In this document: positions 45,397 to 48,651 of the stretch, piece after piece
Layout: every line of letters begins with the position of its first letter
Position numbering within the stretch: the stretch's first letter is position 1
Assembly: GCF_016412875.1 (NCBI RefSeq)
Contig: NZ_JAEKPD010000001.1
Span: forward strand, 1 to 64,000
From: Palleronia pontilimi
Lineage (GTDB): Bacteria > Pseudomonadota > Alphaproteobacteria > Rhodobacterales > Rhodobacteraceae
DNA: 64,000 nt
Direction: 5' to 3'
The notes under the pieces: generated by a model
What the model was told of the DNA's origin: nothing
The model's input: only the letters and a program-made list of their open reading frames with translations
The model's database searches: none
Made by a program: the position numbers and the translations under genes

Positions 45397-46398
45397 ATGG
45401 GTAATGCGCGTCACGTCAAGGTTCTGATCATCGGCTCGGGGCCTGCGGGCTATACCGCTGCCGTCTATGCCACGCGCGCCATGCTCGAGCCGGTGCTGAT
45501 CCAGGGCCTGCAGCCCGGCGGGCAGCTGACCATCACGACGGACGTGGAAAACTGGCCCGGCGAGTCGTCGATCATGGGCCCGGACCTGATGGTCAAGATG
45601 GAAGCCCACGCCCGCGACACCGGTGCCGAAGTGGTGTCGGATTACGTGTCCTCGGTCGATCTGTCGAAGCGCCCCTTCACCGCCCGGTGTGACAGCGGCG
45701 ACACCTATACCGCCGACGCGCTGATCCTTGCGACCGGTGCGCAGGCCAAGTGGCTGGGCCTGCCCAGCGAGGACGCATTCAAGGGCTTCGGCGTGTCGGC
45801 CTGCGCGACCTGCGACGGGTTCTTCTATCGCGGCCAGGACGTGGCGGTGATCGGCGGCGGCAACACCGCCGTGGAAGAGGCGCTGTTCCTGACGAATTTC
45901 GCCAGCAAGGTGACGCTGGTCCATCGCCGCGACGAATTGCGGGCCGAAAAGATCCTGCAACACCGGCTGATGAACCACCCCAAGGTCGAAATCCTATGGG
46001 ACCACCAGCTGGACGAGGTGACGGGCACCGACGCCCCCAAGGGGGTCGAGGCCGTGCGCGTCAAGCACGTGAAAACGGGCGCGATCACCGAGATCCCGGT
46101 GAAGGGCGTGTTCATCGCCATCGGCCACGCGCCCGCGTCGGAACTGGTGAAAGACCAGCTCGACACGCATCACGGCGGCTATGTCGTGACCAAGCCGGAC
46201 AGCACCGAAACGTCGATCCCCGGCGTCTTCGCCGCGGGCGACCTGACCGACCACGTCTATCGGCAGGCCGTGACCAGCGCCGGGATGGGCTGCATGGCCG
46301 CTCTCGAGGCCGAGCGGTTCCTGGCATCGGTGGGCGAGGATAGCGGCAAGGTCCAGACCGAGCCGCTGGGCTACGGCGCGGAAGTGCCCGCCCAGTAA
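45397..46398 (+). CDS. trxB: Thioredoxin-disulfide reductase
   Basis: A 333-residue FAD/NADPH enzyme that reduces thioredoxin. It shows the FAD-binding GSGPAG (13-18), redox-active CATC (C136 and C139), NADPH-binding GGGNTA (about 153-158) and the C-terminal FAD motif GVFAAGD. Length is normal for the low-molecular-weight form. It is transcribed away from the Lrp gene and followed by the regulator/sulfate-activation reading frame after about 200 bp. Confidence 0.95.
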
Positions 46399-46506: not shown

Positions 46507-46528
46507 GTTTGTTCTTTTCTGAACAAAC
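46507..46528. promoter_or_regulatory. Perfect 8+8 dyad, probable operator of the downstream winged-helix gene
   Basis: GTTTGTTC (46507-46514) and GAACAAAC (46521-46528) are exact inverted copies separated by 6 nt. The dyad lies 6 nt before the GTG at 46534 and about 70 nt before the ATG at 46597. A 22-bp dyad directly upstream of a MarR-type winged-helix protein is the usual place for its own operator. The U-rich loop would also allow an RNA hairpin, but there is no following U-tract, so a terminator for trxB is less likely. Confidence 0.55.
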
Positions 46529-46596
46529 TTTTCGTGCCATGCGTCCGGCGTCCAGAACACCCCGAGTCGCCCGTGCCCGCACCCAGCAAACCCACC

Positions 46597-48651
46597 ATGA
46601 CCGACGCGCAGGAAGTCCTGTTCCGGCTTCTGCGCCAGATCGACATGGCCCCCGCGGCGTCGCAACGCGCGACGGCGGCGGCGGTGGGCGTGTCGCTGGG
46701 CCGGCTGAACGCGCAGCTCCGCGCGGCCATCGCCGACGGCCTGATCCGCATCGACGCGCGCGACAGCACCGATCGGCGCCAGCGCGTCGCCTATGGGCTG
46801 ACATCGAAGGGCGCGGCCGAGAAGGCCCGGCTGATCGACCTGTTCCTGGCCAGGAAGCTTTCCGAATACCACGCGCTTCACGCCGAGCTGACCGGCTCGT
46901 CCAGCGTTTCCCGTTCCGCGAATACAAGGATTCACACCATGCAAAACGCCAATCTCACCCCCATCCCCGAGCTGTTCGTGTCCTACGACAGCGCCCAGAA
47001 GCTGAAGGCCGAGGCCGGGACGCTGAACAGCCACGATCTGAGCCCGCGCCAGATCTGCGACCTGGAGCTGCTGATGAACGGCGGCTTCGCGCCGCTGAAA
47101 GGCTTCCAGGGCGAAGACGATTACAACGGCGTCGTGGAAAACATGCGCACCGCCGACGGCACGCTCTGGCCCATCCCGATCACGCTGGACGTGTCGGAAA
47201 AGTTCGCGGAAGCGGTCGAGATCGGCCAAGACATCGCCCTGCGTGACCAGGAAGGCGTGATCCTGGCGACCATGACCGTCACCGACAAATGGGTGCCCGA
47301 CAAGGCGCGCGAGGCCGCGATGGTGTTCGGCGCCGATGACGACGCGCACCCGGCGGTGAACTACCTGCACAACCAGGCGGGCGCGGTTTACCTCGGCGGC
47401 CCCGTCACCGGCATCCAGCAGCCGGTGCATTACGACTTCAAGGCCCGCCGCGACACCCCGAACGAGCTGCGCGCCTATTTCCGCAAGATGGGCTGGCGCC
47501 GCGTGGTCGCGTTCCAGACCCGCAACCCGCTGCACCGCGCGCACCAGGAACTGACCTTCCGCGCCGCGCGCGAAGCGCAGGCCAACCTGCTGATCCACCC
47601 CGTCGTCGGCATGACCAAGCCGGGCGACGTGGACCACTTCACCCGCGTGCGCTGCTACGAGGCGGTGCTGGACAAGTATCCTTCGGCCACCACGACCATG
47701 TCGCTCCTGCCGCTGGCCATGCGCATGGCCGGCCCGCGCGAGGCGGTGTGGCACGGGCTGATCCGCAAGAACTACGGCTGCACCCATTTCATCGTCGGCC
47801 GCGACCACGCGGGCCCCGGCAAGAACTCGGCCGGTGAGGATTTCTACGGCCCCTACGACGCCCAGGACCTGTTCCGCGAGCACCAGGACGAGATGGGCAT
47901 CGAGATGGTGGACTTCAAACACATGGTCTATGTGCAAGAGCGCGCCCAGTACGAGCCCAATGACGAGATCGCGGACAAGGACAACGTCACGATCCTGAAC
48001 ATCTCGGGCACCGAGCTGCGCCGTCGCCTGCGCGAAGGGCTGGAGATCCCCGAGTGGTTCAGCTTCCCCGAAGTGGTGAAGGAACTGCGCCGCACGTCGC
48101 CGCCGCGCTCGGACCAGGGCTTCACGGTGTTCTTCACGGGCTTCTCGGGATCGGGCAAATCCACCATTGCCAACGCGTTGATGGTCAAGCTGATGGAGAT
48201 GGGCGGCCGCCCGGTGACGCTGCTGGACGGCGACATCGTGCGCAAGAACCTGTCTTCCGAGCTGGGCTTCAGCAAGGAACACCGGGACCTGAACATCCGC
48301 CGCATCGGCTATGTCGCGTCCGAGATCACCAAGAACGGCGGCATCGCCATCTGCGCGCCCATCGCGCCCTACGGGACCACCCGCCGCGCCGTGCGCGAGG
48401 ATATCGAGGCGTTCGGCGCCTTCGTGGAAATCCACGTGGCCACTTCGCTGGAAGAATGCGAGCGGCGCGATCGCAAGGGCCTGTACAAGCTGGCGCGCGA
48501 GGGCAAGATCAAGGAATTCACCGGCATTTCGGACCCCTACGACGTGCCGAAAAATCCCGAATTGCGGCTGGATACCGAAAGCGTGGACGTGGACAATTGC
48601 GCCCACCAGGTTCTGCTGAAGCTGGAAAGCATGGGCCTGATCGCCGCCTGA
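46597..48651 (+). CDS. In-frame fusion: MarR-type (EPS-associated) winged helix + ATP sulfurylase + APS kinase
   Basis: A single uninterrupted frame of 684 residues. Residues of about 1-100 form a winged helix of the 'MarR family EPS-associated' type: ATAAAVGVSLGRLNAQLRAA, RQRVAYGLTSKGAAEKARLI, then FLARKLSEYHALHAELTG. A ~15-residue linker (SSSVSRSANTRIHT) leads straight into a full-length bifunctional ATP sulfurylase/APS kinase. The codons across the junction (46894-46941) contain no stop. The ATG at 46597 lacks a clear ribosome binding site; GTG at 46534 would add 21 residues. Translation from either start must produce the three-domain protein, which would tie DNA binding to PAPS synthesis. 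Confidence 0.65.
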   Translation: MTDAQEVLFRLLRQIDMAPAASQRATAAAVGVSLGRLNAQLRAAIADGLIRIDARDSTDRRQRVAYGLTSKGAAEKARLIDLFLARKLSEYHALHAELTGSSSVSRSANTRIHTMQNANLTPIPELFVSYDSAQKLKAEAGTLNSHDLSPRQICDLELLMNGGFAPLKGFQGEDDYNGVVENMRTADGTLWPIPITLDVSEKFAEAVEIGQDIALRDQEGVILATMTVTDKWVPDKAREAAMVFGADDDAHPAVNYLHNQAGAVYLGGPVTGIQQPVHYDFKARRDTPNELRAYFRKMGWRRVVAFQTRNPLHRAHQELTFRAAREAQANLLIHPVVGMTKPGDVDHFTRVRCYEAVLDKYPSATTTMSLLPLAMRMAGPREAVWHGLIRKNYGCTHFIVGRDHAGPGKNSAGEDFYGPYDAQDLFREHQDEMGIEMVDFKHMVYVQERAQYEPNDEIADKDNVTILNISGTELRRRLREGLEIPEWFSFPEVVKELRRTSPPRSDQGFTVFFTGFSGSGKSTIANALMVKLMEMGGRPVTLLDGDIVRKNLSSELGFSKEHRDLNIRRIGYVASEITKNGGIAICAPIAPYGTTRRAVREDIEAFGAFVEIHVATSLEECERRDRKGLYKLAREGKIKEFTGISDPYDVPKNPELRLDTESVDVDNCAHQVLLKLESMGLIAA
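46939..48651 (+). CDS. cysC: Bifunctional sulfate adenylyltransferase / adenylylsulfate kinase (internal-start form)
   Basis: A 570-residue form beginning at the ATG at 46939, which has its own AAGGA 8 nt upstream. That is the normal length and start (MQNANLTPIPELFVSYDSA) of the family. The sulfurylase part (about 1-385) has FQTRNPLHRAH and GRDHAGPGKN for ATP and sulfate binding. The kinase part (about 390-570) has the P-loop FTGFSGSGKST and the APS-binding IRRIGYVASE region. It makes PAPS from sulfate and ATP for assimilation or for sulfation of polysaccharides and lipids. Whether it is made separately or only as the fusion described at 46597 cannot be decided from sequence. Confidence 0.88.
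   Translation: MQNANLTPIPELFVSYDSAQKLKAEAGTLNSHDLSPRQICDLELLMNGGFAPLKGFQGEDDYNGVVENMRTADGTLWPIPITLDVSEKFAEAVEIGQDIALRDQEGVILATMTVTDKWVPDKAREAAMVFGADDDAHPAVNYLHNQAGAVYLGGPVTGIQQPVHYDFKARRDTPNELRAYFRKMGWRRVVAFQTRNPLHRAHQELTFRAAREAQANLLIHPVVGMTKPGDVDHFTRVRCYEAVLDKYPSATTTMSLLPLAMRMAGPREAVWHGLIRKNYGCTHFIVGRDHAGPGKNSAGEDFYGPYDAQDLFREHQDEMGIEMVDFKHMVYVQERAQYEPNDEIADKDNVTILNISGTELRRRLREGLEIPEWFSFPEVVKELRRTSPPRSDQGFTVFFTGFSGSGKSTIANALMVKLMEMGGRPVTLLDGDIVRKNLSSELGFSKEHRDLNIRRIGYVASEITKNGGIAICAPIAPYGTTRRAVREDIEAFGAFVEIHVATSLEECERRDRKGLYKLAREGKIKEFTGISDPYDVPKNPELRLDTESVDVDNCAHQVLLKLESMGLIAA

Follow-up and report, generated by a model that had tools for sequence, protein, structure and literature searches.

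A putative autoregulated PAPS synthase in Palleronia pontilimi: a winged-helix domain in frame with ATP sulfurylase/APS kinase and a candidate internal translation start

Introduction

The first 64,000 nucleotides of contig NZ_JAEKPD010000001.1 of the alphaproteobacterium Palleronia pontilimi (assembly GCF_016412875.1; this whole stretch is the window referred to below) carry an open frame in which a MarR-like winged helix-turn-helix (wHTH) domain runs directly into the bifunctional sulfate-activating enzyme ATP sulfurylase/adenosine 5'-phosphosulfate (APS) kinase, a 3'-phosphoadenosine 5'-phosphosulfate (PAPS) synthase. Why should such an enzyme carry a DNA-binding domain, and does the frame yield one protein or two? 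A preliminary description of this DNA had left open whether a trifunctional protein or two products from one frame would result. The analysis presented here finds the wHTH–ATP sulfurylase–APS kinase architecture conserved and strongly favors the two-product option on the basis of an invariant internal ribosome-binding site. To our knowledge, control of sulfate assimilation in these often marine bacteria is poorly described. If true, a conserved enzyme–repressor fusion would represent a new way to control the committed step, and the invariant ribosome-binding site inside its coding sequence makes this housekeeping-enzyme gene a clear candidate, occurring in nature, for the production of two proteins from one frame.

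Results

Domain organization and conservation of the fused gene

Translation of the window confirms that 46534–48651 (+) is a stop-free frame of 705 codons, within which the stretch between the regulator-like domain and the enzyme (46861–46950) is open, as first described. Frame residues 26 to 120 match the TIGR04176 MarR_EPS model with 75.1 bits within the fusion and 79 to 80 bits for the domain alone, below the curated cut-off of 88; the original designation of an EPS (exopolysaccharide)-type MarR helix thus holds for the nearest family model and not for membership at that cut-off. Residues 136 to 704 match the equivalog NF004040 (bifunctional Sat/CysC) with 1040.5 bits against a cut-off of 669, over model positions 5 to 571 of 572, and the predicted protein passes the score and motif tests of the bifunctional ATP sulfurylase/APS kinase family. 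A profile search returns the domain order wHTH–PF14306–PF01747–PF01583, which is correct because the TIGR04176 and NF004040 matches sit at residues 26 to 120 and 136 to 704, respectively. The sequences QTRNPLHRAH, GRDHAG, and GFSGSGKST, the catalytic motifs of the two enzyme domains, are all present and fall in columns that are invariant or nearly so across 26 aligned fused sequences. When modeled alone, the wHTH domain is predicted with a pLDDT (predicted local distance difference test) of 90.8 and the element order H-H-H-E-E-H, as in a MarR-type winged-helix fold, in which three helices are followed by a wing of two strands and a long helix at the C terminus. Ranked by E-value, its top PDB matches belong to the MarR family (E 2.8e-5, template modeling [TM] score 0.64/0.48, but with a root mean square deviation of 10.7), and Sso10a-2 superposes better than these (TM 0.68–0.76). 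The prediction for the whole fusion is poor (mean pLDDT 47.7), the wHTH being the sole part modeled well. The features of the gene are as follows.

46573–48651 (+): predicted long form, wHTH–ATP sulfurylase–APS kinase, 692 amino acids (aa), in the open frame from a GTG start placed by comparison with relatives
46609–46893 (+): winged-helix domain (MarR_EPS-like), residues 26–120 of the 705-codon frame, by profile match and structure model
46693–46710 (+): recognition-helix residues SLGRLN, by comparison with fused and stand-alone relatives
46897–46938 (+): linker SSSVSRSANTRIHT; the equivalent stretch is open in 84/84 fused loci (junction survey, codon table)
46926–46930 (+): internal Shine–Dalgarno sequence AAGGA, overlapping the invariant AGG codon of Arg132 (46927–46929); AGG and AGGA each in 84/84 loci
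46939–48651 (+): predicted short form, bifunctional ATP sulfurylase/APS kinase, 570 aa, from an ATG start, by profile match and conservation of the start codon
46963–48093 (+): ATP sulfurylase (PF14306 + PF01747), with QTRNPLHRAH and GRDHAG invariant in 26 aligned fused sequences (profile, alignment)
48115–48573 (+): APS kinase (PF01583), with the P-loop GFSGSGKST (profile, alignment)

A scan of genome contigs gave 80 loci, which were retained for their top scores and are hence uninformative on frequency; four same-genus loci bring the set to 84 fused loci that span the junction, 83 of them complete; in the other, L017, the contig stops within the enzyme. In all 84 the junction is read through in one frame with zero stops, and the same is true of 54 fused loci of a family sample that overlaps this set. 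A stop codon here in relatives, named at the outset as a result that would refute the fusion, was looked for and is absent from both collections. This recurrence rules out a sequencing or frame error at the junction, and the fused frame is, on these alignments, more than the accident of one genome. The frequency is given by the family sample, in which a fusion-type wHTH (at least 145 bits) occurs in 52 of 248 genomes from 247 genera; 51 of these domains lie in frames of 690 to 797 aa, and the last, that of G045, has a frame of 267 aa located at a contig end. Within the genus of the window, all 14 genomes harbor the enzyme, with the full fusion in the window genome and two others and an enzyme without wHTH in ten; one genome (G003) has a fused fragment plus unfused enzyme pieces on separate contigs (L017, L014, L015, and L018). 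No fusion type was found outside the family among 289 genomes of the class (two such hits, both in the family) or 299 genomes of the phylum (eight hits, all in the family). The median ratio of nonsynonymous to synonymous change (dN/dS) is 0.18 for the wHTH (845 close pairs); the linker reaches 0.52, and the two parts of the enzyme have values of 0.12 and 0.07. The wHTH is thus clearly under purifying selection as a protein.

Probable start of the long form and codon adaptation of the wHTH domain

Positions 46534 and 46597 had been named as candidate starts of a long product; alignment with relatives instead favors the GTG at 46573, which would give a protein of 692 aa, while the internal start at 46939, suggested at the same time, is conserved. 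Upstream of the long-form start, 51 of 83 loci have a weak GAG-type Shine–Dalgarno sequence, two have AGGA or GGAG, and 30 have none. Codon adaptation is 0.52 for the wHTH part, compared with 0.64 to 0.73 for the ATP sulfurylase and 0.66 for the thioredoxin reductase gene trxB (70 loci), and in 81 of 84 loci the wHTH lies below the opening segment of the enzyme; these values were calibrated on the APS kinase part of each gene set, a yardstick that favors that half.

Such figures could also be expected if the upstream frame were mainly a translated leader or a separate regulator, with little fusion protein made, or with the linker cleaved, and the wHTH acting free. The linker does evolve fastest of the four parts compared, the upstream Shine–Dalgarno sequence is only of the weak GAG type or lacking in 81 of 83 loci, and the codon usage of the wHTH is the poorer. 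A stop codon, however, would be the simpler way to free a regulator, yet none is found at the junction in 84 loci, and we regard this explanation as unlikely.

An inverted repeat that accompanies the wHTH domain

The inverted repeat GTTC-N6-GAAC is found within 220 bp upstream of 83 of the 84 fused loci; in the remaining one (L038), which is cut at a contig end, a half site is visible. The consensus of the site proximal to the gene is near ATGYGTTCA-N4-TGAACRCA, and 22 of the 83 loci have two sites, which are spaced by 32 bp in 13 cases. In the family sample the repeat precedes 54 of 55 fused loci versus 0 of 59 unfused loci within 250 bp, a count in which one locus (L134) was reassigned by hand to the fused group and in which the fused exception (L151), whose contig equals that of L038 in length (30,816 bases), is presumably the same cut contig. 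Extending the search to 600 bp adds a single unfused locus (1/59; L211, without the A/T core), and mononucleotide shuffles give by chance a mean of 0.155 of 54 loci with a repeat. Two such elements can be recognized in the window.

46507–46528 (+): intact distal inverted repeat GTTTGTTC-N6-GAACAAAC, core 46511–46524, a candidate operator (repeat survey of fused loci)
46543–46558 (+): degenerate copy (GTCC...GAAC) of the proximal operator of relatives, which have GTTCA-N4-TGAAC there (alignment)

The first in-frame start lies 18 to 19 nucleotides past the proximal repeat in 38 of 83 loci, just 3' of a conserved GAGT(C), and because of this placement repression is preferred over activation as the putative consequence of binding. 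One might instead take the repeat for the terminator of trxB, which lies upstream, or for the site of another regulator, since the score of the window copy is that of a terminator-like hairpin with T residues after it. What speaks for an operator of the wHTH is the association itself, as the repeat is present at 54/55 loci with the domain and 0/59 without, even though trxB is also near 7 of 10 unfused same-genus loci; the repeat further precedes stand-alone wHTH relatives at other loci (see below), and its proximal copy stops 18 to 19 nucleotides short of the start in those 38 loci. A terminator or foreign site is in our judgment a little less likely still than a wHTH acting free.

A separate element, CTTT-NN-TG, recurs across 15 aligned leaders at roughly 17 bp upstream of ATGCGTT (window approximately 46514–46545), even in those without a distal operator, and may be an unusual promoter element.

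An invariant ribosome-binding site within the coding sequence

The internal ATG at 46939 does have its own AAGGA, at 46926–46930, as noted in the preliminary description. The codon of Arg132 is AGG in 84 of 84 loci, compared with 3 of 3343 arginine codons across the enzyme part, and AGGA precedes residue 136 in 84 of 84 loci compared with 33 of 1267 other in-frame methionine codons. Residue 136 itself is encoded by ATG in 78 loci, by GTG in five, and by CTT in one (L083), where an ATG follows directly. In the overlapping family sample, Arg132 is AGG in 53 of 54 loci. Among unfused enzyme genes with a placeable start (n = 31), two have AGGA, nine have AGG, and 20 have neither, while the start could not be placed in a further 28.

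The invariant AGG codon and AGGA site argue that both a fusion of 692 aa and an enzyme of 570 aa are made, and this reading of one frame as the source of a fusion plus a headless enzyme is strongly favored by the codon comparison. Taken together, the internal site, the weak upstream site, and the codon adaptation favor a short enzyme that is strongly translated and a long form that is less so. The alternative that the long three-domain protein alone is made, with the internal ATG and AGGA as relics of an ancestral separate enzyme gene, accords with the open frame and with purifying selection on the wHTH; a relic AGG would be unlikely to persist in 84 of 84 loci at a proportion of synonymous differences (pS) of about 0.44 to 0.60 between close pairs, given that AGG makes up 0.1% of arginine codons in the enzyme, and we consider this alternative improbable.

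Targets of the putative repressor and its stand-alone relatives

GTTC-N6-GAAC occurs 47 times in the genome of P. pontilimi versus 64 times for a reversed control. A strict pattern, YGTTCANNNNTGAACR, gives 58 sites in 41 fused genomes versus eight for its reversed control. Of these 58 sites, 40 are found at the promoter of the fused gene itself, in 39 genomes (one site, in G202, sits where a different contig ends, and its assignment is inferential); the strict pattern is missing from that position in two fused genomes, G000 (that of the window) and G093. Two of the 18 other sites precede stand-alone paralogs (L226 and L233). The remaining 16 show no recurrent EPS or sulfation gene when inspected by eye, a database scan not having been made, and many lie inside longer open frames, some of which we recognized by eye as presumably rpoC and dksA coding sequence. 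As 40 of 58 strict sites are found at the fused gene, the chief target of putative wHTH binding is likely its own gene. A wide sulfur regulon is unsupported, given 47 occurrences against 64 in the control in the organism's own genome and strict sites mostly at the fused gene.

The same distribution tells against the link that had been proposed from the sequence, in which an EPS regulator would be tied to the provision of PAPS for sulfating polysaccharides. In favor of that link, MarR_EPS is the model closest to the wHTH, and 31 of 31 aligned fused domains match it. However, "EPS" is here only the name of the nearest family, and the window domain falls under its cut-off; 40 of 58 strict sites are at the gene's own promoter, two precede stand-alone relatives, and the other 16, judged by eye and with no search made for sulfotransferases, show no EPS or sulfation gene that recurs. 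No Sat/CysC gene besides the fused one was found in the genome. On these grounds we consider the link highly improbable.

The family sample also contains 40 stand-alone relatives of the wHTH, in frames of 119 to 217 aa, that score 45 to 107 bits on the fused-domain profile, compared with 145 to 176 bits for the 52 fusion-type domains. These are sited at other loci, and 15 of 38 have an exact repeat within 300 bp upstream. The repeat is upstream of 11 of 11 stand-alone relatives with the recognition helix SLGxxN, as in the fused proteins, versus 4 of 25 others (Fisher p 2.3e-6, in a test that ignores relatedness, on a grouping made by eye after the sites had been seen); two poor hits (L268 and L272) were dropped from these counts, and L226 and L233 were excluded since the pattern itself had found them. 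With the latter two included, the counts are 12 of 12 versus 5 of 26. Relatives with SVGGxH and SNGS helices (among L235–L272, L226, and L233) mostly lack the repeat upstream. The split in the recognition helix may thus supply a specificity rule for MarR_EPS regulators. One stand-alone relative with an operator (L226) is divergent from a frame that by eye resembles an exopolysaccharide sugar transferase.

Gene neighborhood, sulfur genes, and history of the fusion

The fused gene adjoins an Lrp-type regulator and the following gene, the latter directly upstream.

45397–46398 (+): thioredoxin reductase gene (trxB), by profile; trxB is present in 72/84 fused loci and 7/10 unfused same-genus loci

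These neighbors do not constitute an exopolysaccharide locus, location in which is part of the definition of the MarR_EPS family. In the genome of P. pontilimi, which is 99% complete, the fused gene is the sole match to a Sat/CysC query, and searches found one gene of the PAPS reductase family and no CysD; the likely role of the fused gene is therefore assimilatory sulfate activation.

A quick tree of the enzyme part, with 73 rows, of which 27 are unfused and 46 are fused (a selection thinned from 86), groups the window with two fused genomes of its genus. A single origin of the fusion is not supported by this tree, which requires 14 changes, at least five of them forced, and does not distinguish repeated loss, repeated gain, and transfer. 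Since trxB is kept beside fused and unfused genes, the wHTH and its operator seem to have been gained or lost jointly at one place. Ten plasmid records (NZ_CP143424, NC_008387, NC_015729, and others) hold enzyme copies that cover at least 80% of the query with 82 to 89% identity; these copies, from Roseobacter, Sulfitobacter, Paracoccus, and others, align only from residue 96 to 115 of 684, so without the wHTH, and are a possible route for replacing the fused form. In Leisingera aquaemixtae, a second short C-terminal piece of the enzyme (L039:6030–6131; query residues 672–705, one stop) lies approximately 950 bp after the fused gene.

Discussion

We propose that this gene is probably that of an autoregulated PAPS synthase, the long form of which would bind the promoter of the gene itself, with most of the enzyme coming from an internal start. 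From the conserved fusion, the conserved internal start, and a repeat that comes and goes with the wHTH, we infer DNA binding, repression, and two products as follows. The long form (692 aa from GTG 46573) would consist of a MarR-type winged helix on the N terminus of a complete ATP sulfurylase/APS kinase and would bind repeats of the GTTCA-N4-TGAAC type just before its own gene, most likely repressing it. The second start at 46939, with its Shine–Dalgarno sequence in linker codons, would yield a 570-aa enzyme devoid of the DNA-binding head and probably more abundant. The enzyme probably controls its own production in this way. As to what is sensed, our guess is that the enzyme part may report on occupancy by sulfate, ATP, APS, or PAPS, and, by a further guess, that the short form may dilute the long form or join it in mixed oligomers. 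The fuller picture of a single-gene feedback device, in which the long form would sense through its active sites and repress its own promoter, the internal start would set the ratio of repressor to free enzyme, and mixed oligomers would tune the shut-off, is tentative, and we would place it at slightly less than even.

Several observations weigh against the autoregulated synthase. In the window the proximal operator is degenerate and the distal copy alone is intact, this copy resembles a terminator hairpin by its score, the strict pattern is absent from the genome as a whole, and a promoter scan found no sigma-70-type promoter. One fused locus (L136) has CGG in place of AGG at Arg132, and a promoter inside the wHTH part could also yield the short form. 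The repeat also occurs with five of the 26 stand-alone relatives that lack SLGxxN, and most genomes of the family do without a fusion-type wHTH. Fused and unfused enzymes are interspersed on the tree, where shuffled labels require about 22 changes instead of 14. Finally, the 84 loci are related, were the top hits of a single scan, and are partly shared with the family sample, and thus the counts are not independent events. The operator of the proposed autoregulated gene is short, defined, and found with the domain and not without it, and is therefore testable by simple binding and reporter assays.

Comparison with known systems

The wHTH resembles TIGR04176 MarR_EPS regulators in belonging by profile to the same winged-helix family, matched by all 31 of the 31 fused domains at E-values up to 0.01 (best, 2.4e-29, such that at least one relative probably passes the cut-off), and the stand-alone SLGxxN members of that family carry the same type of repeat upstream. 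It differs in that 51 of 52 fusion-type domains sit on an enzyme, whereas the stand-alone relatives occupy frames of 119 to 217 aa. The catalytic part, in turn, is like that of NF004040 enzymes of solved structure (2gks, 3cr8, and the fungal 1i2d) in being full length, with both domains and their motifs. Unlike the window protein, none of 35 PDB sequences (E up to 1e-10) aligns with the wHTH, the best stretches beginning at or after residue 123 of 684. Because the catalytic part dominates family matches, the wHTH head would likely escape notice in such genes. Full-text searches of open-licence PubMed Central papers returned no description of the fusion, in agreement with the initial impression that this architecture had not been described. 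In PMC4103551, a table lists a bifunctional sulfate adenylyltransferase/adenylylsulfate kinase protein of Roseobacter litoralis with the figure 64.39 (presumably kDa); this entry is no test of the fusion because the plasmid copy of R. litoralis matches only from residue 113 of 684.

By analogy, the fusion may work like a trigger enzyme. Trigger enzymes with a DNA-binding domain, such as PutA, BirA, and NadR, are metabolic enzymes that regulate their own pathway. The term is explained in PMC4848566, as is a sulfur-assimilation enzyme with a role in transcription, the sulfur-responsive PAPS reductase A of the truffle Tuber melanosporum; as described there, this protein is fungal, acts at a later step of the pathway, activates through a C-terminal polypeptide, and has no winged helix, all in contrast to the protein considered here. 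With PutA, BirA, and NadR, the P. pontilimi gene shares the joining of an enzyme and a DNA-binding domain in one chain, seen here at the gene level as one open frame in 84 of 84 loci; it is set apart from them by a different enzyme, a different DNA-binding domain, and a conserved internal start that apparently gives the headless enzyme from the same frame.

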